From: Bacteroidota bacterium
GTDB taxonomy: Bacteria > Bacteroidota > Bacteroidia > Palsa-965
Assembly (NCBI GenBank): GCA_006218065.1
Contig: VBWE01000001.1
Span: forward strand, 317,063-381,062
Length of the DNA: 64,000 bases
Direction: 5' to 3'
The translations under genes were made by a program, and so were the position numbers. The notes below the pieces were generated by a model. It did not search any database. It saw only the letters and a list, made by a program, of their open reading frames with translations, and was not told the origin of the DNA. This document shows, in pieces, positions 3,732 to 16,961 of the stretch. Every line of letters begins with the position of its first letter. The stretch's first letter is position 1.

Positions 3732-3876
3732 CTGGTTTATCCCGAAATACGCATTAGCGATAAAGCAGTCTTTTACGGTCCAATGCTATCGGGATTCTCA
3801 AATCTATGCGTCAGAAACCTGTTGGTTGGAAAGAATACAGTACCGAATAATTTTCTGACGCATGATTTGGGTTTAT
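3732..3876. repeat. Two-hairpin repeat element, copy 1
   Basis: This roughly 145-bp block recurs at 16708-16851. It contains two inverted repeats in tandem. Stem 1 pairs ATCCCGA..GCATT with AATGC..TCGGGAT. Stem 2 pairs CAAATC and ATGCGTCAGAAA with TTTCTGACGCAT and GATTTG, with a one-base bulge. Arms are conserved between copies while loops differ. It fills the space between the divergent ABC operon and the 3888 gene, and its right edge overlaps a promoter-like TATCTTTG. It resembles a REP/MITE-like palindromic element; no mobility gene is nearby. Confidence 0.8.
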
Positions 3877-3881
3877 CTTTG
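3874..3881 (+). promoter_or_regulatory. Bacteroidetes-type -7 element
   Basis: TATCTTTG matches TAnnTTTG, with TTTTC 18 bp upstream in place of the -33 element. Only six bases separate it from the ATG at 3888, so the transcript would be almost leaderless. The upstream half lies in the right stem of the repeat element. Confidence 0.45.
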
Positions 3882-3887
3882 TAAATC

Positions 3888-5285
3888 ATGTTGCGGACTT
3901 TAGTCATCCTGTCTTTCCTGCTTGTCACACGGCTTTCGGCGCAACCCGTTTTTTTCGAATCGCTTTTCGGTTCAGCCGAGTACGATTATGCACGTTCGCT
4001 GAAGCAGATTTCCAGCGGAAGTATTTTCGTCGCCGGCTACACGTATAACGGTCCCTTCGGCGGTGTGGACGCGGCTTTGCACAAACTCGACCGTTTCGGG
4101 AACTTGGTCTGGACAAAATATTACGGCGACAGTTTGGATGATCTCGGGCTTTTTCTTACGCTCTCTTCCGACGGAAATCTGCTGCTCTGCGGTGAAAAAC
4201 AAACGTCTTCCTCGGGCCTCGATGCTTTCCTGGCCAAGATCGATACCACCGGGAACGAACTCTGGTTTCGTACCTACGGCGGGCCTTTAAATCAGTCGGC
4301 AAAATTCGTAACGGAAGCTGCGAACGGTGATTTTCTGCTTGCGGGTTTTGCAAATGCAGGCAGTTCCAACGATTCGTACCTGCTGCGCACCGACAGCGCG
4401 GGAAACGAGCTATGGAACCAGTTGTACGGAGGTTCGGATAACGATTATGCCGATGCGGTGCGTGAACTTCCCGGCGGTGATTTAATTCTCACAGGCGATA
4501 CGCGCAGCTGGGGTTTCGGCGGATATGACGTGGAGCTGATCCGTACCGACAGCGCAGGAAATGTGGCCTGGGATTTTACCTACGGCGATTCGCTTCAGAA
4601 CGGCTGCCAGGGAATACTCGTAACAGGCGATATGCGTTTGGTGAGTTTCGGAGAAACGGAGATCGCCCCGTTTTCGCTTTTTGATTTTTACCTGGAAAAA
4701 ATAGACACGGCCGGGAACAGCCAGTGGCGGCGCACGTTCGGCGGAGCCAGTTCGGATGCGGCATTCTCGGCGACCGAAGTTTCCGACGGGTTTATGCTTT
4801 GCGGTTACAGCAACAGCTACGCACCCGGGCCGATCAGCGTGGTGGTTATGAAAACCGATACCGGCGGAAACCTGCTTTGGGCGCATCCGTACGGCGGAAC
4901 CGGAATCGATATCGGGTACGAGATTATTCCTTCGCTGGACAACGGTTTTTTGGTGATCGGCACATCCAACGTAAGCGGCGATGACCAGTGTTACCTGCTG
5001 CATACCGACGCGGGAGGCTGGACAGGAATGCGGGAAGACGCTGCAAAGAGAAATGCCGTTTCCATTTTTCCGAATCCTTCGGACGGCCTGTTTTCACTGG
5101 GCTTTGACGGTCCGCGAACCGGTGCGACGCTTTCCGTTTTTTCGATGCCGGGCAAACTGCTTGTGCAGGTGCCGGCAGAAAACACGATTGACCTGCGCGG
5201 AAAATTAGTTCCGGGAATTTACCTGCTGGATATTACTGCAAATGGAGAACACCGGGTCGCGAGACTGGTTATCGGATCTTTTTAG
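3888..5285 (+). CDS. T9SS type A sorted secreted protein with beta-propeller-like repeats
   Basis: The 465-residue protein has a signal peptide (LVILSFLLVTRLSAQ) and then seven or so repeats of the form 'GxxxxDxxLxKxDxxGNxxWxxxYGGxxxD', resembling the SBBP/delta-60 type blades expected to fold as a beta-propeller. It ends with a type A T9SS sorting domain: SIFPNPSDGLFSLGF, then LSVFSMPGKLL and a final GIYLLDI...RLVIGSF strand. It should be secreted across the outer membrane by T9SS and anchored or released. Its ligand is unknown. It follows the repeat element and is probably transcribed alone. Confidence 0.85.
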   Translation: MLRTLVILSFLLVTRLSAQPVFFESLFGSAEYDYARSLKQISSGSIFVAGYTYNGPFGGVDAALHKLDRFGNLVWTKYYGDSLDDLGLFLTLSSDGNLLLCGEKQTSSSGLDAFLAKIDTTGNELWFRTYGGPLNQSAKFVTEAANGDFLLAGFANAGSSNDSYLLRTDSAGNELWNQLYGGSDNDYADAVRELPGGDLILTGDTRSWGFGGYDVELIRTDSAGNVAWDFTYGDSLQNGCQGILVTGDMRLVSFGETEIAPFSLFDFYLEKIDTAGNSQWRRTFGGASSDAAFSATEVSDGFMLCGYSNSYAPGPISVVVMKTDTGGNLLWAHPYGGTGIDIGYEIIPSLDNGFLVIGTSNVSGDDQCYLLHTDAGGWTGMREDAAKRNAVSIFPNPSDGLFSLGFDGPRTGATLSVFSMPGKLLVQVPAENTIDLRGKLVPGIYLLDITANGEHRVARLVIGSF

Positions 5286-5302
5286 AAAAGCCGGTGAACG
5301 GA

Positions 5303-5539
5303 TCAGCTCACCATCAGGTCGCTGCTGCTGAGCAGTTCGGCGCCGATCACATCTTCGAGATCGATCGCCTGGCCGAGGCTGTCGGAATTTGCCGCGTAAT
5401 GCTTCCGCGTCCGTTCTGCCAACGTCGAAAAATAGTATCCGCCGTGCAGTTCACGAATAATGCCGAAAATTTCCTTACCTGCTTTCAACTTGAAACGACA
5501 GGGCTGATCATTAAAACTCACAAAATCGGAATGGGTCAT
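5303..5539 (-). CDS. Small conserved-looking hypothetical protein
   Basis: This 78-residue minus-strand frame starts with ATG at 5539 and ends 17 nt past the 3888 gene's stop, on the opposite strand. The product is soluble, begins MTHSDFVSFNDQPCRFKLK, and has a beta-rich pattern (FKLKAGKEIFGIIREL, GGYYFSTLAERTRKHY) reminiscent of small SH3/Sm-like barrels. No signal peptide or membrane helix is visible. I do not recognise a family. It is accepted as real because it fills an otherwise empty gap, has balanced amino-acid usage and is not opposite another gene. Confidence 0.55.
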   Translation of the reverse strand: MTHSDFVSFNDQPCRFKLKAGKEIFGIIRELHGGYYFSTLAERTRKHYAANSDSLGQAIDLEDVIGAELLSSSDLMVS

Positions 5540-5716
5540 CCTGGCTACGCCTTGAATTCTACTGCTATTATAACGCTTTATCTCCGGGAGTGTTACTTCA
5601 AGTTTTCAACCGGGCAGCCAAAACCTGTTAATTGCAATTAACATTTTTAGGGGGTTATTCACAATCCACATAGTCAAGGCCATGAAAACCCGCCTGTTGC
5701 CTGCCTCTTTTTGTCT

Positions 5717-5724
5717 TACTTTTG
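5717..5724 (+). promoter_or_regulatory. Bacteroidetes-type -7 element
   Basis: TACTTTTG matches TAnnTTTG, with TTG at 5698-5700 as a -33 candidate. It lies 43 nt upstream of the ATG at 5768. Confidence 0.5.
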
Positions 5725-5767
5725 TTTCCCGGTAACATTATTATGATGTACTGATAATCGTTCTTCT

Positions 5768-8700
5768 ATGACCCGTATTACCAAGTTTAGCTTCTTCTTT
5801 TTGTTTTTTTCCCTGTTTTTTATTGTGCTTTCCGCCGATGCGCAATCGGGCTGGGACCAGGTAAAAGCAAATGACAACCGTGCCGCCCGCACTCTTTTTT
5901 CAGCTGTTCTCGAAAAAGACAGCATGGATGAACAAGCGCTCAAAGGCATGATTTACCTATCCGAAATCGAGCAGGATAATCTCAGCTTCAATAAATATGT
6001 GAGCCGGCTGCTGAAGAAATCGGATGACGAGATTTTGTTTCTTGTCTTCGAAGATTTTTACACCGGCAAGGCGGACGACATCATCAAAAAAACATCGCTG
6101 AGCGAAAAAGCGCGGATGAGTTCGAAAGTGGGCAAGGCCGGCGAGCTGGAACACGACCGCAAATTCGACGAGGCGCGGAAAATGAGGCGCGAGTTATTCC
6201 CGCAGCTGAAATGGAGTTTTATCGGGCCTTTCAAAAACATCGCGGGAAGCGGGCACGTCACCGAACACCCGATTGAAAAAGAATCTTTCTCCGAAAACAA
6301 AACGTACCGCAATCCATTCGGCATCGACCTGCGCTGGGTAAAACCGGCTTTCATCACCGACGACGGGCGCATCGACCCGGAAGATTATTCCATGCAGTGG
6401 GGCGAGCGCAGCGTGTATTACGCCAACGCGTTTTTCGACATGCCACAGGCGAAACGCATACAGGTGCGCATTGCCCGCGAAGCGCCGATGAAAATATGGC
6501 TCGACGATTTCCTGGTTTTCGAAAACAAAGACGAAGTCTCCTGGGACACGGAAATCGTAACGCTCGACCTGCCCGCCGGCACACACCGCCTGCTCGTTAA
6601 ACTTTCGTCGGCGGTCAGTCCGCCCAAATCATACCGCTTCCTGGAATTCAATCCTTCGGGCGGGTACTACGGCCGGTACGACTTCGGCGGTATGTTTGAT
6701 TACGGCGACCTGTTCGGCGGCGGGGACTATGGCGGCGGCGGCGACCACAGTTTCTGCATCCGCTTCACCGATGAAACCGGGGCGCCCGTGAACATCAGCG
6801 CAGCGGCATCAGGCAATTATTCCCGCGGCAATTATAAAGCAACGGCCAGCGAACAATCTGCCATCCCGGTGCTGCGCGAACGTGTGAATAAAAACCCGGA
6901 CGACCTGTTCGGCTGGTACATGCTCTGCCGCGCCGCACTCGACTCGCGCCATTCGCAGCAGGCCGAGGAATGGCTGGTGGCCGCCTGGCGCAAACAACCG
7001 AACCTAGTTTTCATGAAGTACCTCTGCGCCCGTGTGTATGCGCGCAACGGGAAAGTGGAAAAAACCTACGATATGCTCAACGATATCGACCAGGAAAAAA
7101 CGCCGATTTTCGGAGACCTGTACAAAAAATTCCAGGACATCGATCTCAGCACCGACCCGGACCGTTATCTCGATGGATTGAAATTACTGAACAGCGTTAC
7201 GCCTTCCAATTACTCCGTCATCCAGGGATTCATCAGCTATTACAATACGCGCGGCCTGCAGCAGGAAAAAGAAGAGTACCTGAAAAAAATGACGGAACGT
7301 TTTCCTGAATACAAGGAAACGCTGGAGTGGGAACTGACCCGCGACGAAAACCGGCCCGATAAAGAGCAAACAGACAAAGAGCGCGAAAAGTATGAGCTCG
7401 AGTCGGTGCAGAATACCAAAAAACGTTTTGTTACTTACGATTACACCGAAGCCATCCAGCATTTCAAGGAAAAAGCGAACACGAAAAAAGTACTTGCGCT
7501 GTACAATGAACTGATCGAAATAATTCCTTCGCGCACATTTTACCGGAAAGAGAAAGCCGAGTTTTTATACGCGGAAGGACGTTTCGACGACGCATTGAAA
7601 GAACTTGAAAACGTGCTTGCCATCAACCCGTACAGCATGGATGCGATTGAGCAGATGGGCGACATCTGGTACGATCGCGTGAAGAACAATAAAGAAAATC
7701 AGCAGAAAGCCCTTGCGTACTATCACCAGGCCAAAGCGCTCGGTTCGGGCAGTTATTCGCTCGATGAAAAAATAGAAAAGATCGAAGGACTGGTTACGTA
7801 CAAAAAACTGTTCACCACGAAAAACTTCGATGATGTCCTGGCCGATCCGGGCTGGAAGTCGCGCTACCAGGATGAAGAGTCCATCGTGCTGATGTATACC
7901 CGCGACCTGATCCTGACGCCCGACCGGAACGTGGAAGTGTACCAGCAGTTTATGGTGAAGGTGCTCAACGACAACGGCGCCAAAAAATGGACGGAATATA
8001 ATTTCGGGTTTCTCGGTAACCTGAATACCGTGAAAGTGAAAAAAGCGAACGGAACGGAATTTACTCCCGACCAGCGCGGCGGATACGTGGTGATCAAAAA
8101 CCTTTCGCCGGGAGATATCATCATGCTGGACGGTGTTTACAAATGGAGCGGATACGAAGAGCAGCTCGACACGGCTTTTTCCATGACGCATTACGTGGCT
8201 TTCGATGTGCCGATCTGGTACAAAAAATTCGAAGTCGCCATCCCGGAAGGGCGTTACCTGAATACGATGACGCACCTGACGGAAAACAAATACACCAAAA
8301 CCGCGCACGATAAATTCGACTTTTACCGCTGGGAATACAGCGATGTGCCAAAAGCGGAAAACGAAGAAGCGATCCTGGACAGCTACGATCCGTACCCGAC
8401 TGTCTCCATAAGCACCTTGCCCGACTGGAGCCGCGTGGTAGAATGGTACCAGCAGAAAACATACAGCAAGTTCGATCTTACCTACGACGTGCGCGAAGCG
8501 CTGGACAGCATCATCAGGCCGAACATGAGCGCGCAGGAAAAAGTGGACGCGGTGTATAATTACCTGACCAAAGAAATCAAGTATTCCTACGTTCCTTTCC
8601 TGCAATCGGGCTACACACCGAAAGACCCGGAACTTACGCTTTCGGGCCGCATCGGCGACTGCAAGGATGTGGCCACGCTGATGATCGCCATGCTGCGCTC

Positions 8701-9610
8701 GCTCAACATCGAGAGTTATTATACCCTCGTGAAAACAAATGCGTTCAATCACCAGGATATGCTGCCTGCGCTGAGTTTCGATCACGTGGTGGCCTGCGTG
8801 ATCCTGGACGGGGAAAAACGCTTTTACGACCTGACCACGGATTTCTACCCGAGTTACGTGCTTACCGAAAACGATCTCGGCGCCTACGGCCTGCTGATCA
8901 AAGACGGCGAGAAAGATCTTTTCCTGCTGCCCGACGACGACCTGAACGAAAAGAAAAACAAAGTGGTGTACGAAATCGATGCAAAACTGGGCAGCAACGG
9001 CACGCTGGATATTTCGGCAAACACGGTTATGCCGGGCATCGCGGGCGGATCGATGCGCGAGGTTTTTGCGGCGGGCATTTCCGAGCTGGAAAAACGGAAC
9101 TATCTTTCTTCCATGCTCGGCGCAGGAAATTACCAGAACCTTTCGCTTACCGATTACCAGCTGAAAAACACGCTGGCCATTTCCGAGCCGCTCAGCGCAT
9201 CGTATCAACTGAAAGCGGAAGAATACAGCGACGAAGTTGTCGGGCTGCTGATCTGCCCGCTGCCCTGGCTCAGCAGCCTGCAAAGCAGTTCGGTCATCTC
9301 CAGCAAATCGCGCCGCAACCGGCTCGATGTTTCGCAGATCTGCTACGCCGGACCGATGACACAGAAAGTAACGCTTCGCATGCCCAAAGGCTACAAGCTG
9401 ATGCGTGTTCCGCAAAACGTTTCCATCGATAATAAATTCGGCCGGTACGAACTGAAGTTCAAACTGAACAGCGACGGAAGTCTTTCCGCAGAAAAATACC
9501 AGCAGTTTAAAGTCAATAAAATCGAGCCGAAAGATTTCGCTGAGTTCAAAACCTTCTACCTGCAACTGCTGAAACAGGACCGTATGAAAATCGCGATCCA
9601 GCAATTGTAG
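5768..9610 (+). CDS. TPR / DUF3857 / transglutaminase-like secreted protein
   Basis: This 1280-residue protein has a signal peptide ending near ADAQ. Residues 130-330 form a beta-rich segment (WSFIGPFKN..., then a Gly/Tyr/Asp-rich loop). TPR-like helices occupy about 370-680. A DUF3857-type domain follows (700-900), then a transglutaminase-like core. The core keeps the triad: Cys965 in IGDCKD, His1006 in FDHVV and Asp1021 in FYDLTTD. DUF3857-transglutaminase proteins are common in Bacteroidetes envelopes; the usual size is 600-700 residues, so the N-terminal extension roughly doubles it. The role could be peptide cleavage or crosslinking in the periplasm, which is inference. The next gene begins 20 nt downstream, suggesting cotranscription. 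Confidence 0.85.
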   Translation: MTRITKFSFFFLFFSLFFIVLSADAQSGWDQVKANDNRAARTLFSAVLEKDSMDEQALKGMIYLSEIEQDNLSFNKYVSRLLKKSDDEILFLVFEDFYTGKADDIIKKTSLSEKARMSSKVGKAGELEHDRKFDEARKMRRELFPQLKWSFIGPFKNIAGSGHVTEHPIEKESFSENKTYRNPFGIDLRWVKPAFITDDGRIDPEDYSMQWGERSVYYANAFFDMPQAKRIQVRIAREAPMKIWLDDFLVFENKDEVSWDTEIVTLDLPAGTHRLLVKLSSAVSPPKSYRFLEFNPSGGYYGRYDFGGMFDYGDLFGGGDYGGGGDHSFCIRFTDETGAPVNISAAASGNYSRGNYKATASEQSAIPVLRERVNKNPDDLFGWYMLCRAALDSRHSQQAEEWLVAAWRKQPNLVFMKYLCARVYARNGKVEKTYDMLNDIDQEKTPIFGDLYKKFQDIDLSTDPDRYLDGLKLLNSVTPSNYSVIQGFISYYNTRGLQQEKEEYLKKMTERFPEYKETLEWELTRDENRPDKEQTDKEREKYELESVQNTKKRFVTYDYTEAIQHFKEKANTKKVLALYNELIEIIPSRTFYRKEKAEFLYAEGRFDDALKELENVLAINPYSMDAIEQMGDIWYDRVKNNKENQQKALAYYHQAKALGSGSYSLDEKIEKIEGLVTYKKLFTTKNFDDVLADPGWKSRYQDEESIVLMYTRDLILTPDRNVEVYQQFMVKVLNDNGAKKWTEYNFGFLGNLNTVKVKKANGTEFTPDQRGGYVVIKNLSPGDIIMLDGVYKWSGYEEQLDTAFSMTHYVAFDVPIWYKKFEVAIPEGRYLNTMTHLTENKYTKTAHDKFDFYRWEYSDVPKAENEEAILDSYDPYPTVSISTLPDWSRVVEWYQQKTYSKFDLTYDVREALDSIIRPNMSAQEKVDAVYNYLTKEIKYSYVPFLQSGYTPKDPELTLSGRIGDCKDVATLMIAMLRSLNIESYYTLVKTNAFNHQDMLPALSFDHVVACVILDGEKRFYDLTTDFYPSYVLTENDLGAYGLLIKDGEKDLFLLPDDDLNEKKNKVVYEIDAKLGSNGTLDISANTVMPGIAGGSMREVFAAGISELEKRNYLSSMLGAGNYQNLSLTDYQLKNTLAISEPLSASYQLKAEEYSDEVVGLLICPLPWLSSLQSSSVISSKSRRNRLDVSQICYAGPMTQKVTLRMPKGYKLMRVPQNVSIDNKFGRYELKFKLNSDGSLSAEKYQQFKVNKIEPKDFAEFKTFYLQLLKQDRMKIAIQQL

Positions 9611-9630
9611 TACACCGTAAAACTCCGTTC

Positions 9631-10896
9631 ATGAAATCGTTTTTCGTTCGTCTTTTTTTTCTCGCCGCTCTTTTTTCGGCAGGACAAATCCTGAAGGCGC
9701 AAGCTCCTGCGCCGCAGATCATCGTTTACGGTACAAGTCCTTTTGTGGATTCGCTCTGGGGTTTTGACACGGCGAGCTGGACTCCCGTTGTTTCGCTTTC
9801 TCCCTCGATTGTAGGCGACAGCATTGAAGGCATACTCAGCATCACCTTCGATCCGCAAACATTCCGGACTTACGGTATCGCCAAAGTAACAAGCCTTTCA
9901 ACGCGCGCACTGGTTACCGTTGACCTGGCAACAGGAGTATGCACCGTGATCGGGGAGCTCGGCGATAAATTTTCAACGCTCAGCTTCCGCAGCGACGGCC
10001 AGCTTTTCGGCGTAACCGGCGACGGGGCAAATACGCCCGAAACATTATACCTGGTTGATAAAATAACCGGCGTTCCCACGCTCGCCTCCGCACTCGGCAA
10101 CGGCGCCGACGGGGAGCTGATCTGTTTCAGCCCGCACAGCCAGGCCTTTTTCCACTGGTCGGGAAACGACACGGTGGTCTTTGAAAAATTCGCCCCGGCG
10201 GCACCGTATACCGTTACTCCCATCACCATCGGTCCACCGAACACGGAGATCTTCGGTGCGGCGTACCTTTCTCCCAATCAATTCCTGGGCACAACGCTCG
10301 ACAACGAATTCGTTTACCTCGATACGCTCGGGAATGCCTCTGCCGGTTTCGCGCCGACACAGGACAACATACGCGGACTGTCGATGCCGCCGGTGTTTAC
10401 GTTCAGCAACGATACGGTTTGCGCAGGAACAGAAACGTTTTATGTCGGGGCAGGTTGTCTTTCGCTGTTCAACGGCGTGCACTATTTCTGGGGCGACGGG
10501 AATTTCGACATTACCGGGGCAAACGGATTTTCACACATATATATCACCCCCGGAACGTACACGGTTTCCATCCTGCTCACCAACGGCGCTTTGCCTGCCG
10601 ATACGTTTACAACATATACGGTTACGGTGATCGGATGCGTGGGCATGGAAGAGCAACCGGTTTCCGGATTGCAGGTTTATCCCAACCCGGGGACCGGTTT
10701 AATTACGCTTGATGTTCCTGTTCCGGGCGCAAACATCGAAGTAAGCGACGTCCTCGGAAAAATCATTTACCGGGAAACGAATCTTCCCGAAGGGCGGAAT
10801 ACGATCGACCTGGAAAGCCGGCCGGAAGGAATTTATTTCGTGAAGCTCTTATCGGGAGAATCGATTGCTGTGGCGCGTGTGATTATTTCGCGCTGA
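9631..10896 (+). CDS. T9SS type A cargo protein, paralogue of the 12558 gene
   Basis: The 421-residue protein has a signal peptide and an N-terminal propeller-like region starting YGTSPFVDSLWGFDTASW. A PKD-like segment follows (VHYFWGDGNFD ... HIYITPGTYTV), and it ends in a type A sorting domain (LQVYPNPGTGLITLDV, VSDVLGKIIY, GIYFVKLL...RVIISR). Its first 330 residues align by eye with the start of the 12558 product, including DSLW, FDPQTF, GVCT and GNGADGE motifs. Its stop TGA directly abuts the stop (TCA) of the convergent peptidase gene with no base between. Confidence 0.85.
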   Translation: MKSFFVRLFFLAALFSAGQILKAQAPAPQIIVYGTSPFVDSLWGFDTASWTPVVSLSPSIVGDSIEGILSITFDPQTFRTYGIAKVTSLSTRALVTVDLATGVCTVIGELGDKFSTLSFRSDGQLFGVTGDGANTPETLYLVDKITGVPTLASALGNGADGELICFSPHSQAFFHWSGNDTVVFEKFAPAAPYTVTPITIGPPNTEIFGAAYLSPNQFLGTTLDNEFVYLDTLGNASAGFAPTQDNIRGLSMPPVFTFSNDTVCAGTETFYVGAGCLSLFNGVHYFWGDGNFDITGANGFSHIYITPGTYTVSILLTNGALPADTFTTYTVTVIGCVGMEEQPVSGLQVYPNPGTGLITLDVPVPGANIEVSDVLGKIIYRETNLPEGRNTIDLESRPEGIYFVKLLSGESIAVARVIISR

Positions 10897-11868
10897 TCAT
10901 TTCATTTGTACGATCACATTATAAACGCCTTTCACCACTTCGGCCATGCGTTTATAATCCAGTGTTTCCGGCGTATCGGTCGGTTCGTGGTAATTTTTAT
11001 TCCGGTAAAACGCCGTGTTGGTGATCATCACCGCATCGTAACCTTCAGCCCAGTAATTCAGGTGGTCCGAAAAATCGATCCCGGGAAGCGATGCCGGCGC
11101 GTTGATGGAACGCACATCGAGATCCATCGCGCTGTTCATTTTTCTTTTCACATTCCGGATCAGGCGGCCCTGCCCGAACTTTCCCACCACGGCGATATAA
11201 TTTGCTTTGTCCGGGTAAAACAGTTTCAGCAATTTGACGGGATATTCCTGCGAATCTTCGGCATCTGAAAAATAGCCGATCATTTCGAGGCAGATCATCG
11301 TTTTTACTTTGATGTCTTTCGCTTTGAGCGATCGCGCATGAACCGCACTTCCCATTTCCGTCGTCCGGAAATACGGCGGCTCTTCGAGCGTATAAAAAAC
11401 AAGATCGGTCCGGTATGCCAGCTGCGCGGAATTGCGTTTCAACTGCCTCGCGATTTCGAGCAGGCCGGCAGTTCCGCTGGCGTTGTCATCCGCACCGGGT
11501 CTTTCGCCGCAAACATCGTAATGCGCGCCGGCGATAATCCGTTCCCCGGAATCCGGTCCGAAAGAGCAGATGATATTCCTGTACTTTTTTCCGCCGGCTT
11601 CATAAACCTGCTCTTCCGAAATAATTCCTTCGGCCGAAAGCTGCGCACGGATCCACGAAGCGGCGGAATCGAGCGAGGCGGTATTTTCACTGTGCCGGGC
11701 AGGCTGCAGGGTGGCGAGGAAAACCACGTCGCTTTTCAGTTTTTCCGGATCAACCCGGATTATTTCCACTTCGGTATCTGCAGCAAAAAGAACGGGATTC
11801 GTAACCATACAAACCCCGCAGATCAAAACCAGGGAAACCCCTGCCATCGTTTTCCACAGCCGGCGCAT
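10897..11868 (-). CDS. M28 family zinc peptidase (secreted aminopeptidase-like)
   Basis: The 323-residue protein has an N-terminal hydrophobic signal segment (VSLVLICGVCMV). The M28 fold follows, with zinc-site motifs His116 (GAHYD), Asp127 (GADDNASG), Glu162/Glu163 (TLEEPPY, general base and ligand) and Glu195 (CLEMIG), plus a C-terminal YHEPTDTPETLDY. It should hydrolyse N-terminal residues of peptides in the periplasm or outside. The start ATG at 11868 shares one base with the ferritin stop TGA, a TGATG arrangement that implies translational coupling. Confidence 0.9.
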   Translation of the reverse strand: MRRLWKTMAGVSLVLICGVCMVTNPVLFAADTEVEIIRVDPEKLKSDVVFLATLQPARHSENTASLDSAASWIRAQLSAEGIISEEQVYEAGGKKYRNIICSFGPDSGERIIAGAHYDVCGERPGADDNASGTAGLLEIARQLKRNSAQLAYRTDLVFYTLEEPPYFRTTEMGSAVHARSLKAKDIKVKTMICLEMIGYFSDAEDSQEYPVKLLKLFYPDKANYIAVVGKFGQGRLIRNVKRKMNSAMDLDVRSINAPASLPGIDFSDHLNYWAEGYDAVMITNTAFYRNKNYHEPTDTPETLDYKRMAEVVKGVYNVIVQMK

Positions 11869-12389
11869 CAGGCCTGTTTATCGGCAGCCGCAGATTCCGC
11901 AGCAGCCATCGTTTCGAGGTCGCGGTCAAACAGATACAGTCCGCCTTTTTCTCCGCCGATCAGTTTCAGTTTATCCAGGATGCGGCGGGCCAGCGCTTCT
12001 TCTTCGATCTGTTCCGAAACGTACCACTGCAGGAAATTGTGCGTGGTATAATCGCGTTCTTTCAGGCAGGTTTCAACCAGTTTGTTGATCTCGTTCGAAA
12101 CCAGTATTTCATGTTCGAGCACCAGTTCGAAAATCGCCTGGACCGATTTGAATGTTTTCGGAGGCGCCTTCAGCGTGGGCACAACACCATGACCGCCGCG
12201 TTCGTTCACGAACTTGATCAGCTTGAGCATGTGCAGGCGCTCTTCGTCAGCATGCGTAAAAAGAAACTGCGCGATGCCATTCATGCCCTGGGTTTCGGCC
12301 CAGGAGGCCATAGCGAGATAATACTGCGATGACGATCCTTCGAGCTCGATCTGCTCGTTCAGCGCCTTTTCTATTTTTTTGGAGAGCAT
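11868..12389 (-). CDS. ftnA: Bacterial non-haem ferritin
   Basis: The 173-residue protein is a four-helix ferritin. The ferroxidase ligands sit where E. coli FtnA has them: Glu17, Glu50, His53, Glu94, Gln127 and Glu130. No haem-binding Met is expected in this subfamily. The product oxidises and stores iron in 24-mer cages in the cytoplasm. The C-terminus is extended by an Ala/Glu-rich tail (TMAAAESAAADKQA). It is first in a two-gene unit with the M28 peptidase. A TACATTTG element (12412-12419, minus) lies 22 nt upstream of the ATG. Confidence 0.95.
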   Translation of the reverse strand: MLSKKIEKALNEQIELEGSSSQYYLAMASWAETQGMNGIAQFLFTHADEERLHMLKLIKFVNERGGHGVVPTLKAPPKTFKSVQAIFELVLEHEILVSNEINKLVETCLKERDYTTHNFLQWYVSEQIEEEALARRILDKLKLIGGEKGGLYLFDRDLETMAAAESAAADKQA

Positions 12390-12411
12390 GGTTTTCCGTA
12401 TTGCGTTTGTA

Positions 12412-12419
12412 CAAATGTA
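12412..12419 (-). promoter_or_regulatory. Bacteroidetes-type -7 element for ferritin
   Basis: Minus-strand TACATTTG matches TAnnTTTG, 22 nt upstream of the ferritin ATG at 12389. No convincing -33 element was seen. Confidence 0.45.
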
Positions 12420-12522
12420 AAAACAATATTCCGGCTCTATTTGTTGCGGGTCAATAAGCGGCCCGACGGTTTTCCGGCGATTAATTCTTGCCGAAAGATA
12501 TTGGAAATCAACCCGGTTGCCT

Positions 12523-12530
12523 TATTTTTG
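12523..12530 (+). promoter_or_regulatory. Bacteroidetes-type promoter
   Basis: TATTTTTG matches TAnnTTTG, with TTGG at 12501-12504 giving an 18-bp spacer. It lies 27 nt upstream of ATG 12558 and inside the longer open frame that begins at 12441, which argues for the 12558 start. Confidence 0.6.
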
Positions 12531-12557
12531 CCTCGCAACAACAAACAGCATTACACT

Positions 12558-15092
12558 ATGAAAAGATATCTGCTCGCGCTTCTCTTCGTCCTGGGGACCT
12601 TGCTGCCAACTGAAAAAGCACAGGCACAGGTCAGCCACCTCATCTGGGGAACCAGTCCTTTCCAGGACTCTTTGTGGTCGGTGGATACTACTACATGGAC
12701 TATCGTCAACCGTATCGGGCCTACGCTTCCCGGCTTTACCATTACGGGTATGACCGGCCTGGCTTATGATCCGCAGACTTTCAAAACGTTCATCATCATG
12801 AAACTTTCCGGTGTAACCGGGCGGGTGCTGGGTACAATCGACCTGAATACCGGCGTTTGTACGCAGGTAGGCAACCTGGGAAATAATTTTTCATCCATCA
12901 CTTTCGATTGCAACGGTCAGCTTTTCGGCGCCACCGGCAACGGGGCGAACCCGAACCCGGAAAGCCTGTTTTCCATAGATAAAAATACCGGCGTGCCTAC
13001 ATTCCTGACCGCACTCGGGAACGGCGCAGATGGAGAAATTATTCTTTACAACCCGGATGACCAGTTTATATACCACTGGTCGGGAAACGGCACCGTTATT
13101 TTCGAAAAGTTTCCCTCCATTGCACCGTATACGCCTGTAACGAACATTCCTACTTCCGGCACAGTCGGCGGAGAGACTTTCGGCGCCATGTATGTTGCTC
13201 CTACGAAATTCATTATTTCGAATATCAGTTCTAATCTCCGGCGTTTATCAACTTTGGGTGTTTACGGCGCTACGCTGAGCAACAACCCGGACGACCTGCG
13301 CGGCCTGGTGATGCCACCGTCTATTGTTCTGTCCGACGACAGCATTTGTGAAGAAGTGGAATCCGTAACCATCAGTACCGGGAACCTCCAACTGTTCAGC
13401 AACGCGATTTATAACTGGGGCGACGGCAACAGCGATACGCTGTCGTCTCCCGGCGACGGAACCCACGTATATAATAATCCCGGAACTTACACTATCGCCG
13501 TTCAACTGGGAACCGGCTGTGTGCGGGATACGATCACTACATTCACAGTAACGGTTTTGAATATTCCAGGCGTAACCATTACCGGTAATCCGAATATCTG
13601 TCCCGGCGGCAGCGTAACGTTAACCGGCTCTTTCGGCGGATCAAGCCAGTGGTACCTGAATGGCGTAGCGATACCCGGCGCAACCAGCAATACCTACACC
13701 ACTTCAACGCCGGGTGTTTATAATATGACCAAAACAAACCTGAACGGCTGTAGCGATTCTGCTGCCGTAGGCTTGGTTGTAACGAGCGTTCCCAACCCGG
13801 TTGTTTCGCTTGGTTCCGATACTACTGTTTGCGGAAGCATCGCGCTTGATGCACAAAATCCCGGCGCCACGTATGCCTGGAACACCGGCGGAACACAGCA
13901 GACCGAAACCTTTTCAACAAGCGGCACTTACAACGTAATGGTTACCGACTCTAACGGATGCAGCGCCAATGATACGATTATCCTGGTTGTTAATCCGTCG
14001 CCGGTAGTCAGCCTCGGCGCAGACACGGCCATTTGCGGATCAACAACGCTCGATGCGCAAAACACCGGCGCCACGTATGCCTGGAACACCGGCGGAACGC
14101 AGCAAACGGAAGCCGTTTCAACAAGCGGAACATATTCCGTTATGGTTACCGACTCTAACGGATGCAGCGCCAACGATACGATCAACCTGGTCATCAACGG
14201 TTTCCCGGTTGTGAACCTCGGCGCGGATACGACTGTTTGCGGAAGCATCACGCTTGACGCACAAAATGCCGGGGCAACGTACGCGTGGAATTCCGGCGGA
14301 ACGCAGCAGACCGAAACCGTAAATACTTCCGGTACTTACAGTGTTGTGGTTACCGATGCAAACGGATGCAGCACCAACGATACGATTAACCTTACTGTCA
14401 ACAGCCTCCCGGTTGTGAATCTCGGCGCGGATACGACTGTTTGCGGAAGCATTACTCTTGACGCACAAAACGCCGGGGCAACCTATGCCTGGAGCACCAG
14501 CGGAACACAGCAAACGGAAACCGTTTCAACCAGCGGCGCCTACTCGGTTATGGTTACCGATGCAAACGGATGCAGTTCCAACGACAGTATCAACATCACC
14601 GTGAACAGCCTCCCGGCCGTTTCGCTGGCCATCACCGCAACCAATATCTGCGCGGACGATGCCAACGTTACGCTTGTCGGTACTCCTGCCGGCGGAACCT
14701 TCAGCGGAACATCCGTAACCGGCAACCAGTTCGATCCTTCGATCGGCGCCGGTCCGCATGATGTGTTTTACAGTTTCACCGACGGCAACGGGTGCACAGG
14801 TATGGACACGCTTTCGATCATCGTGAGCGCCTGCGTGGGTATCCAGGAACAGTCGGCAGCGCAGTTCAGCATCTATCCCAACCCGGGAACAGGCCTGTTC
14901 ACTTTTGATGTGGCGGTATCCGGTTCGCAGGTCGTGGTTACTGACATGCTCGGCAAACTGGTCTTCACGGAGCAAAATGCCGCTTCCGGCAAATACCTGC
15001 TCGATCTTTCGGCTGAAGCGGAAGGCGTTTACTTTGTACGACTCGCTACCGAAAACTCGGTTTCCGTAACACGTCTTGTTATCCGGAAATAA
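12558..15092 (+). CDS. T9SS type A cargo protein with four near-identical Ig-like repeats
   Basis: I place the start at ATG 12558, followed by a clean signal peptide (MKRYLLALLFVLGTLLP...AQAQ). The frame is open upstream to 12441, but the promoter lies in between. The 844-residue protein has an N-terminal region paralogous to the 9631 product, a PKD-like segment (IYNWGDGNSD ... GTHVYNNPGTYT) and four tandem 68-residue Ig-like repeats (13797-14612). It ends in a type A sorting domain (FSIYPNPGTGLFTFDV, VTDMLGKLVF, GVYFVRL...RLVIRK). It is probably an adhesive or structural surface protein. A rho-independent terminator follows 20 nt later. Confidence 0.87.
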   Translation: MKRYLLALLFVLGTLLPTEKAQAQVSHLIWGTSPFQDSLWSVDTTTWTIVNRIGPTLPGFTITGMTGLAYDPQTFKTFIIMKLSGVTGRVLGTIDLNTGVCTQVGNLGNNFSSITFDCNGQLFGATGNGANPNPESLFSIDKNTGVPTFLTALGNGADGEIILYNPDDQFIYHWSGNGTVIFEKFPSIAPYTPVTNIPTSGTVGGETFGAMYVAPTKFIISNISSNLRRLSTLGVYGATLSNNPDDLRGLVMPPSIVLSDDSICEEVESVTISTGNLQLFSNAIYNWGDGNSDTLSSPGDGTHVYNNPGTYTIAVQLGTGCVRDTITTFTVTVLNIPGVTITGNPNICPGGSVTLTGSFGGSSQWYLNGVAIPGATSNTYTTSTPGVYNMTKTNLNGCSDSAAVGLVVTSVPNPVVSLGSDTTVCGSIALDAQNPGATYAWNTGGTQQTETFSTSGTYNVMVTDSNGCSANDTIILVVNPSPVVSLGADTAICGSTTLDAQNTGATYAWNTGGTQQTEAVSTSGTYSVMVTDSNGCSANDTINLVINGFPVVNLGADTTVCGSITLDAQNAGATYAWNSGGTQQTETVNTSGTYSVVVTDANGCSTNDTINLTVNSLPVVNLGADTTVCGSITLDAQNAGATYAWSTSGTQQTETVSTSGAYSVMVTDANGCSSNDSINITVNSLPAVSLAITATNICADDANVTLVGTPAGGTFSGTSVTGNQFDPSIGAGPHDVFYSFTDGNGCTGMDTLSIIVSACVGIQEQSAAQFSIYPNPGTGLFTFDVAVSGSQVVVTDMLGKLVFTEQNAASGKYLLDLSAEAEGVYFVRLATENSVSVTRLVIRK
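13797..14612 (+). repeat. Four tandem 204-bp in-frame repeats
   Basis: Four consecutive 68-codon units start PVVSLG or PVVNLG and contain a 'DTTVCGS' pair Cys and a 'DANGCS' Cys, suggesting one disulfide per unit. Units differ at only a few positions each, so they arose by recent tandem duplication or are kept similar by recombination. A fifth, diverged unit follows at 14613. Confidence 0.9.
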
Positions 15093-15112
15093 GCCGGGAA
15101 AATTCTTTCCGG

Positions 15113-15144
15113 AAAGGGCTGCCTGCAGGTGGCCCTTTTTATTT
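15113..15144 (+). terminator. Rho-independent terminator after the 12558 gene
   Basis: Stem AAAGGGC/GCCCTTT encloses a loop TGCCTGCAGGTG and is followed by a T-rich run (TTTTTATTTT). Confidence 0.8.
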
Positions 15145-15189
15145 TGCCCCGGGCTGTAACTTTTTCCCCTGTTATACGACTTATAACCG

Positions 15190-15759
15190 GTGAGCGACTC
15201 TTCCGGAAACCCGAATACATCGCCGCACGCCATGTTTCTTCAGTGTTACCAGCCTGTTCACGACAAGTTGGCGCGTTACTGCGGAAGCTTAGCCTACGGG
15301 ATTATGGACACCGAAGACCTGGTGCAGGAGACGGTATTGGCTACACTGAAGCATTTTGATTCTATCCGCGAAAAGCACAAGCTTCTTCATTTTATGATGT
15401 GCGTGGCGGGCAATATCATGAAATCGCAGGCCCGCCGGAAAAAATTCCGCGGCGATTACAACGAAAAAGCATTCCGGAAACTCGAAAGCCGTACCGGCGA
15501 CCCTGAAAAGGCGATGGAACTTCACCAGCTTTACCTGGCGATGAACAAACTTCCGGCAAAAGAGAAAGAGGCCCTCCTGCTTTTTGCAGTCATGGGTTTC
15601 AGCATGAAGGAAATCAGTGAAATGCAGGACTCGGGGCTTTCCGCGACCAAAACACGGATCAGCAGGGCCAGGCAAAAACTCCGGGAACTTTTATCCGATC
15701 CCGAAGAAGAAAAAAACAATATTGTCCCGAATTCAATCCCCGTCCTTTCGAGACCATGA
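15190..15759 (+). CDS. ECF-type RNA polymerase sigma factor
   Basis: The 189-residue reading begins with GTG at 15190; an in-frame ATG at 15232 would give 175 residues and starts just before region 2, so the start is uncertain. Region 2 is seen at MDTEDLVQETVLATLKHF. Region 4 is seen as LPAKEKEALLLFAVMGFSMKEI followed by the helix SATKTRISRARQKLRELL. There is no region 1 or 3, as in ECF sigma factors. It overlaps the next gene by four bases (ATGA), so the pair is coupled. It presumably directs core RNA polymerase to envelope-related promoters; targets are unknown. Confidence 0.88.
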   Translation: MSDSSGNPNTSPHAMFLQCYQPVHDKLARYCGSLAYGIMDTEDLVQETVLATLKHFDSIREKHKLLHFMMCVAGNIMKSQARRKKFRGDYNEKAFRKLESRTGDPEKAMELHQLYLAMNKLPAKEKEALLLFAVMGFSMKEISEMQDSGLSATKTRISRARQKLRELLSDPEEEKNNIVPNSIPVLSRP

Positions 15760-16658
15760 TGATGAAAAACGAAAAACTGGATTCTCTTTTCAACGCCGCC
15801 GGGCAATTGCCCGCAGAGGTTGATTATACACAGATCGAGCGCATGGTGGAGCAGCTTCCGGCAACAGCTTCCGGCAAAACTGCACGTGGCCGGTTTTCCC
15901 GGCAAATGATCCTGCGCTCATTCCTTACCGCGGGCATCGCAGGAATACTGACTTTGTCGTTCGTGTATTGGAAGAGCGAAAAAGCGCCGGAACAACTCGC
16001 GAAGCAAACAAAACCGGCGGAAGCTGCTGCACAAAACGAAACAAAACCGGGGCAACCGGAAACAGACGCCAACGTTCCCACATCAGTTTCCGTTCCTCCG
16101 CAGGAAAAAGCAAAATCATTGCCTGCATCACCGGAAAAAACCGGGAAGAAACCCGAAAACACTACGCCGGAAGAAAAATACAGTAACACGACTCCCGGCC
16201 CTGTTGCCACCAAACAGCCGAAAAAGAATCCGGCGGCAACGGCAGATCACAACAAAGTAAATTCACACGAAGCAAAAGCGAATGATCCCGCAATTATATA
16301 CGGCGCCACGCGTACCGATACGGACTATGTTTACACCGGTGAAGGAACCTGGCTCGATCCCGCCGACGAACTGCCGGCCGCTTCCTGCGAAAAAGATCCT
16401 TTGCTGAAACTGCTCGCCTATGAATTATTTGCCGACCAGTTAATTGACGATACCAGCAATTTCCGTTTCAAGCTTTCGGGAAAACGGCTTTCCGTTGATG
16501 GCGTGAAGCAATCCCGGGAGCTTTCTAAAAAATACAAGACGCTTTACGAGAAACATTCCGGGCTGAAGATGAAACGCAGGAACTGGTTCGATTATACTAT
16601 TTCGCGCGGTGTTAACGGCTGCCACATCCGCAAAAACTGCCACGGCAGCGCGATATAA
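15756..16658 (+). CDS. Probable anti-sigma factor / single-pass membrane regulator
   Basis: This 300-residue protein starts inside the last codons of the sigma gene. A short cytoplasmic N-terminus (1-50) precedes one membrane helix (about 51-72, MILRSFLTAGIAGILTLSFV). A long Lys/Pro/Thr/Glu-rich periplasmic linker (73-180) then leads to a C-terminal domain (about 205-300) with YELFADQLIDDTSNFRFKLS and a final segment with paired Cys (GCHIRKNCHG). I recall similar C-terminal domains in Bacteroidetes M56 antirepressor-like membrane proteins. The topology and gene order fit an anti-sigma factor, but no canonical zinc-binding anti-sigma motif is visible. Function is inferred from context. Confidence 0.7.
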   Translation: MMMKNEKLDSLFNAAGQLPAEVDYTQIERMVEQLPATASGKTARGRFSRQMILRSFLTAGIAGILTLSFVYWKSEKAPEQLAKQTKPAEAAAQNETKPGQPETDANVPTSVSVPPQEKAKSLPASPEKTGKKPENTTPEEKYSNTTPGPVATKQPKKNPAATADHNKVNSHEAKANDPAIIYGATRTDTDYVYTGEGTWLDPADELPAASCEKDPLLKLLAYELFADQLIDDTSNFRFKLSGKRLSVDGVKQSRELSKKYKTLYEKHSGLKMKRRNWFDYTISRGVNGCHIRKNCHGSAI

Positions 16659-16961
16659 TTCCTGTTTACGGAAGTCATTTTCTTTTTCCGGGCAGTTTTC
16701 GGTTTTCCTGGTTTATCCCGAATTACGCATTAGATGAGAATTTGCCTGTTACGGTCTAATGCTATCGGGATTCACAAATCTAAGCGCCAGAAAATCAGTA
16801 CATAGAAAAAACTGTTGCCTGAATTTTTCCTGCCGCTTGATTTGAGTTTATGGAATTTTTCCAGTCGTCGCCCTTATTATGGAAAGCGTGATGATCGGCA
16901 GGGAAGAAAATACCCCGTGGTTGCATCGCGTATCAAACCGTAAACCCAATTTCTCCTTACC
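16659..16961. other. Intergenic region holding repeat copy 2
   Basis: This 303-bp gap holds the second copy of the two-hairpin repeat (16708-16851) and about 110 bp of leader before the DUF4349 gene. I see no ORF of note and no clear TAnnTTTG promoter. Confidence 0.6.
16708..16851. repeat. Two-hairpin repeat element, copy 2
   Basis: It is collinear with 3732-3876. Stem 1 pairs GCATTAGA with TCTAATGC plus ATCCCGA with TCGGGAT. Stem 2 pairs CAAATC with GATTTG and AAGCG with CGCTT. At the second base of the inner stem 2 helix the pair is A-T here and T-A in copy 1, a compensatory change. The loops between arms have diverged in both sequence and length. Confidence 0.8.

Follow-up and report, generated by a model that had tools for sequence, protein, structure and literature searches.

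The two hairpin-forming repeats in the window, the whole stretch of 64,000 nucleotides analysed here, are very probably copies of a miniature transposon (MITE) that is non-autonomous and belongs to the IS1380 family, a group of bacterial elements related to piggyBac. The repeat is a MITE and not a REP, and it is probably not a functional RNA. The MITE family is new and of a well-known kind, the IS1380 type, in Bacteroidota.

Copies, borders and target-site duplications

Both repeats stand where the initial annotation had placed them, and the 145 bp it gave as their length included flanking TTTAT duplications. Aligning them with the genome's other copies shows that the element proper starts with CCC and ends with GGG (GAG in copy 2). 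The features in the window, with bit scores from the covariance model R1, are as follows.

3736..3740, + strand: target-site duplication, left of copy 1 (TTTAT)
3741..3871, + strand: MITE copy 1, full length, 131 bp (R1, 145.8 bits, not independent, as R1 was built partly from copies 1 and 2)
3741..3757, + strand: left terminal inverted repeat of copy 1, CCCGAAATACGCATTAG
3741..3793, + strand: hairpin 1 of copy 1, the left terminal inverted repeat and the inverted inner copy
3799..3869, + strand: hairpin 2 of copy 1, the inner direct copy and the right terminal inverted repeat
3852..3871, + strand: right terminal inverted repeat of copy 1, read inward, CCCAAATCATGCGTCAGAAA
3872..3876, + strand: target-site duplication, right of copy 1 (TTTAT)
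3874..3881, + strand: TATCTTTG, which fits TAnnTTTG, the -7 box of Bacteroidota, directly at the insertion point of copy 1
16712..16716, + strand: target-site duplication, left of copy 2 (TTTAT)
16717..16846, + strand: MITE copy 2, full length, 130 bp, CCCGAATTACGCATTAG sub-type (R1, 121.8 bits, not independent for the same reason)
16847..16851, + strand: target-site duplication, right of copy 2 (TTTAT)

The terminal inverted repeats (TIRs) of the family are imperfect and 17 bp long (CCCGAAATACGCATYAG / CCCAAATCAAGCGTTAG), and the element contains no ORF of at least 80 aa. The initial annotation held that both stems are kept in both copies. The two hairpins do fold, beating 200 of 200 shuffles in either copy, as DNA and as RNA (z-scores for copies 1 and 2 of -5.9 and -3.8 as DNA, and of -4.6 and -5.4 as RNA), but stem 2 of copy 2 is imperfect, with mismatches at alignment columns 115/164 and 119/160.

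A finding of only these two copies would have spoken against the initial annotation, which named many copies as a mark of a mobile palindromic family. There are many: the genome of the window (5,257,400 bases, or 5.26 Mb, in 81 contigs) contains 23 full-length copies and about 10 fragments or short forms (L018, L023, L024, L026, L028, L030, C20, C54, C42, and C19). R1 was made from the 23 full copies, so that their recovery is by construction, and its search of the genome found no further full-length copy; copy 1 as a query gave 46 matches, weak and partial ones counted. In relatives the result was negative: neither sequence nor R1 searches found a copy in the 11 other genomes of the same GTDB family, which are the relatives compared, the dataset having no other genome of the genus and none of the order beyond this family. 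The full copies share a mean identity of 78% and at most 93%; hence, no recent burst of copies is visible.

The flanks of the copies show how they came to their places. Left and right flank pentamers are identical in 13 of 25 insertions, compared with 5.2 expected when the right flanks are reshuffled (p ~1e-5; reshuffled flanks reached 13 matches about once per 100,000). This test left out L018, which has lost its left end, the single hairpins L024 and L026, and the fragments. The matching pentamers are a target-site duplication, and the element moved by transposition. The consensus NTNAY fits nearly all flanks, and TTGAT, ATAAT, ATTAT, TTAAT, and TTTAC each flank at least one copy on both sides. 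The middle base of the pentamer agrees in 24/25 insertions (13.6 expected) and the first in 22/25 (18.7 expected, p 0.011); the fifth agrees in 17/25 (16.1 expected), which is uninformative. Because the fifth base lacks independent support, the duplication could be 4 bp long, and its length on our own data is 4 to 5 bp. By analogy it is probably 5 bp, the length documented in passages of two papers for IS1247 and ISEcp1, both of the IS1380 family (PMC3281130, PMC2887853).

Shorter forms are found as well: L026 is a single-hairpin form with ATAAT on either side, and others consist of 78 bp between TTAAT and of 85 bp between TTTAT. From L026 and the 85-bp form, with their matching pentamers, it seems that movement requires no more than the ends. 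Seven loci of the genome (L011, L016, L018, L019, L022, L027, and L036) carry an additional palindrome, TCCGAAGGA...TCCTTCGGA, of about 20 or 42 bp at one fixed point between the hairpins. It is truncated in L022 and present in both sub-types of the MITE, and it is either a nested element or has spread via gene conversion. Some damaged copies (L033:4717-4760, L035:2870-2900, L036:90-115, L015, and L030) are fused to sequence similar to GAGGCTGTTAGGAA or to its complement, which may be where a different mobile element ends. Elsewhere in the window, positions 10057-10211 and 12978-13132 are a 70% identical stretch common to the genes at 9631-10896 and 12441-15092, which are predicted to be paralogous surface proteins encoded side by side.

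Ends, core motifs and the IS1380 family

Complete ISs of the IS1380 family in further genomes of the class have ends similar to those of the MITE, CCCGAAWTACGCATYAG and CCCAAATCAAGCGTTAG. The best agreement, counted by eye, is 16 of 18 positions, and the ends are never identical. The IS1380 ends compared adjoin NF033539-type transposases and lie at the same kind of target as the MITE. One complete IS (L107/L137, genome G080) has 1399 bp, the ends CCCAAATTACGCAGTTGAAT / CCCAAATTCCGCAGTTGAAT, and TTTAA on both sides; another (L108/L136, G110) has the ends CCCAAATTACGCAATAGA / CCCAGATTACGCATTAGA, with TTTAT on the left and ATAAA on the right. The proteins of both are IS1380 transposases (NCBIfam NF033539, E-values of 2e-75 and 5.5e-76). 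Among the complete ISs with both ends read, the duplication is perfect only in L107, agrees in 4/5 positions in L112, and is missing in L108 and L153. Several more IS1380 loci have CCCAAAT ends with NTNAN just before them, and the end of L147, CCCAAATCATGCATTAGA, resembles the right end of the MITE.

Of 395 genomes in the class, 7, including that of the window, contain the end motif of the MITE with at most one mismatch, and none contains the reversed control. Several of the 7 carry other small elements, and R1 had no match in eight end-motif loci of other genomes or in three IS1380 loci. One genome (G114) contains two copies of about 145 bp (L100 and L102) with CCCAAATTACGCATTAGA ends between TTTAA/TTAA repeats; this element represents a separate MITE family, similar in type to that in the window. 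A scan of genome_contigs with ATCCCGAAWTACGCATYAG returned 23 stretches and under-reports, since the AT in this motif depends on the target site (the AT-free form is CCCRAATTACGCATTAGA); the same motif had no match in viral_contigs. The matches in Paenibacillus, Kitasatospora, and Amylibacter look like chance, and two, in an Acidobacteria MAG and a Cytophagaceae MAG, are intergenic. The other 18 of the 23 fall in one Flavobacteriaceae MAG (R2S4C1D_S41.018) that has no copy of the element of the window and has other repeats. At least 18 of these, some only half present, have ATCCCGAATTACGCATTAG ends inside longer conserved flanks (loci L057-L061, L063, L065, L066, L068-L076, and L079).

The interior of the MITE extends the likeness. 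A core, GCRTYAG, occurs four times, at the left end, inverted and direct inside, and at the right end; from left to right the cores lie at 11 (direct), 41 (inverted), and 69 (direct), followed by the inverted right end. The left ends of the IS1380 loci L136 and L156 have the core direct at 11, inverted at 47-49, and direct at 57-59, followed by the transposase start. L137, L139, L152, and L159 have comparable palindromes inside, and no clear one was found in L141, L147, L149, L154, or L161; the sub-terminal inverted core is statistically convincing by itself only at L139, and elsewhere its support comes from the shared position and order. Since its series of cores resembles that of these left ends, the MITE is best read, from sequence, as the left end of an IS1380 element fused to a right end. 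It may have arisen by internal deletion of an IS1380 element or of a similarly built one, and the inner cores would be extra binding sites for the transposase. That one core motif occurs four times, with neighbours pairing, explains the two hairpins. A transposase supplied in trans would bind both TIRs, cut out or copy the MITE, and insert it at an NTNAY pentamer, which would thereby be duplicated. In the IS1380 left ends L136, L137, L139, and L156, two end cores form a short palindrome ahead of the transposase start codon, and this palindrome is a possible operator or translation block.

Where would the transposase come from? Genes of the IS1380 type were detected with PF13701 in 19 of 149 genomes, and the G110 (L108) protein has relatives in 19 of 395; neither search finds one in the 81-contig assembly of the window's genome, and the protein has none in the GTDB family of that genome either. 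With plasmid-borne ISEcp1 elements, the protein shares about 28% identity. No autonomous element with both TIRs 1 to 3 kb apart appeared in the window's genome among the matches listed (the first places of 114). The matching transposase is thus absent, lost, or unassembled here, and the donor is probably not among the IS1380 elements compared, whose ends are close and not exact. Orphan MITEs without a transposase in the same genome exist, so a matching one is not strictly required. The missing gene and donor would agree with a DDE transposase of another family whose ends are similar by chance. We consider this unlikely, given that as many as 16 of the 18 end positions are shared with IS1380 ends and that the kind of target is the same; IS982, a first candidate by its ends, was rejected because its domain (PF13612) is absent from the genome.

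Like the MITE, ISs of the IS1380 family, to which ISEcp1 belongs, have CCC-type TIRs, an AT-rich 5-bp target duplication, and inner core motifs at the left end. The MITE differs in having no transposase gene, in its length of 131 bp compared with about 1.4 kb, and in ends not identical to any compared. Tn3 also makes a 5-bp duplication, and its ends, unlike those of the MITE, are long and begin with GGGG. The TIMEs, which derive from Tn3, resemble the MITE in being miniature elements (PMC4133298). In PMC10813416, IS1380 serves as an outgroup in a piggyBac comparison. BrickBuilt, a MITE of Porphyromonas gingivalis, is likewise from Bacteroidota and has about 20 intergenic copies, some with promoter activity; its description sets it apart by a 23-nt tandem repeat, and that text does not mention IS1380 (PMC4596501). 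Among the open-licence PMC papers listed, no title or abstract opening describes an IS1380 MITE in Bacteroidota.

The MITE half of the "REP/MITE-like" label in the initial annotation holds, by the duplications, the TIRs, and the 23 copies, and the REP half does not. Intergenic palindromes in tens of copies and a two-hairpin layout recall the REPs and BIMEs moved by RAYTs, single-strand Y1 transposases, and the genome has two Y1_Tnp genes of the RAYT type (L193:1447-2004 and L194:1444-1947). However, REPs, as characterized in excerpts of PMC3733652, are defined by a GTAG tag. No GTAG (or CGTC) tag was found beside a stem-loop here; the elements begin with CCCG, end with GGG, and have NTNAY duplicated outside. 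A RAYT gene with the same hairpins at its ends, which the initial annotation had named as a telling sign, did not turn up: R1 had no match in the loci around either Y1_Tnp gene, so that the element has no tie to the Y1 genes of its own genome. The REP/RAYT reading is already contradicted by these observations, and we regard it as extremely improbable.

Covariation in the stems

The compensatory change that had drawn attention to the repeat, a T-A pair in one copy and an A-T pair in the other, is real and lies in stem 2 (columns 111/168 of alignment A2). Whether it points to selection on the folded form, as had been proposed, is another matter. In favour of a structured regulatory RNA or DNA element with its fold under selection are folding better than every shuffle, the intergenic position of nearly all copies, and double changes in 6 of 32 pairs compared with 2.5 in shuffles (12 cells compared with 5.2), a count over all 23 full copies whose kinship inflates the signal. 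However, paired cells make up 94.3% in the 23 copies and 93.1% in shuffles, pair 15/45 is nearly independent, and 115/164 and 116/163 are unpaired in 7/22 and 5/22 sequences, respectively. Compensatory changes are few, and uncompensated ones are as common. The arms are conserved as sequence, with a mean pairwise identity of 91% compared with 66% outside them. Loops and hairpin number vary, and the target duplications, the lack of copies in the relatives, and the lack of Rfam covariance-model matches at gathering score in the window, by which known Rfam families were rejected, do not fit such an element. Selection on the fold thus retains weak support from the double changes, and a regulatory fold is a distinctly unlikely account of the repeat. 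Keeping the recognition motif of a transposase explains the stems, so selection on folding is not needed; sequence constraint on the recognition sites with occasional arm-to-arm correction is sufficient.

Genomic context and the promoter box

According to a crude ORF prediction, 22 of the 23 full copies do not lie within an ORF of at least 90 aa; L003, L004, and L006 overlap an ORF end, and L022 lies inside a doubtful ORF. Copy 1 has as neighbours an ABC-transporter ATPase gene and a gene whose Por_Secre_tail domain scores just below the cut-off, and copy 2 precedes a DUF4349 gene. Domains of this kind suggest that the host is a member of Bacteroidota.

In four copies (L001, L003, L005, and L011), all in the same orientation, CTTTG directly follows the right pentamer and makes TATCTTTG. 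The target NTNAY overlaps the -7 box, TAnnTTTG, given as the Bacteroidota consensus in passages of PMC7366714. TATCTTTG stands at the insertion point in 4/25 insertions compared with 4/1066 non-coding NTNAY sites (Fisher p 1.4e-5), in a post hoc test devised after the flanks had been seen, with 206 kb of the genome's own DNA under a crude ORF-based non-coding mask as the background. This is a hint, from sequence, that the element may insert into promoters. Insertion between TTTAT or ATTAT and CTTTG would rebuild the box and replace the DNA upstream with the right end of the element. At copy 1 the box lies 6 nt before the ATG at 3888, and leaders shorter than 10 nt are rare in Bacteroides according to the same passages (PMC7366714); therefore, we see promoter use at copy 1 only as a possibility. 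More speculative, and in our judgment rather doubtful, is the idea that the MITE is a promoter-seeking module that may have spread one upstream control region to several genes, with the hairpin cores as binding sites.

In summary, a puzzling pair of hairpins is explained by mobile DNA. The case shows that stem conservation, even with a compensatory pair, can be misleading: here the arms are recognition sites present in both orientations. With it, Bacteroidota gain a MITE family of the IS1380 type, and there are signs of independent families elsewhere in the class. If the overlap between target and promoter box is confirmed, promoter rewiring by such elements would be directly testable.
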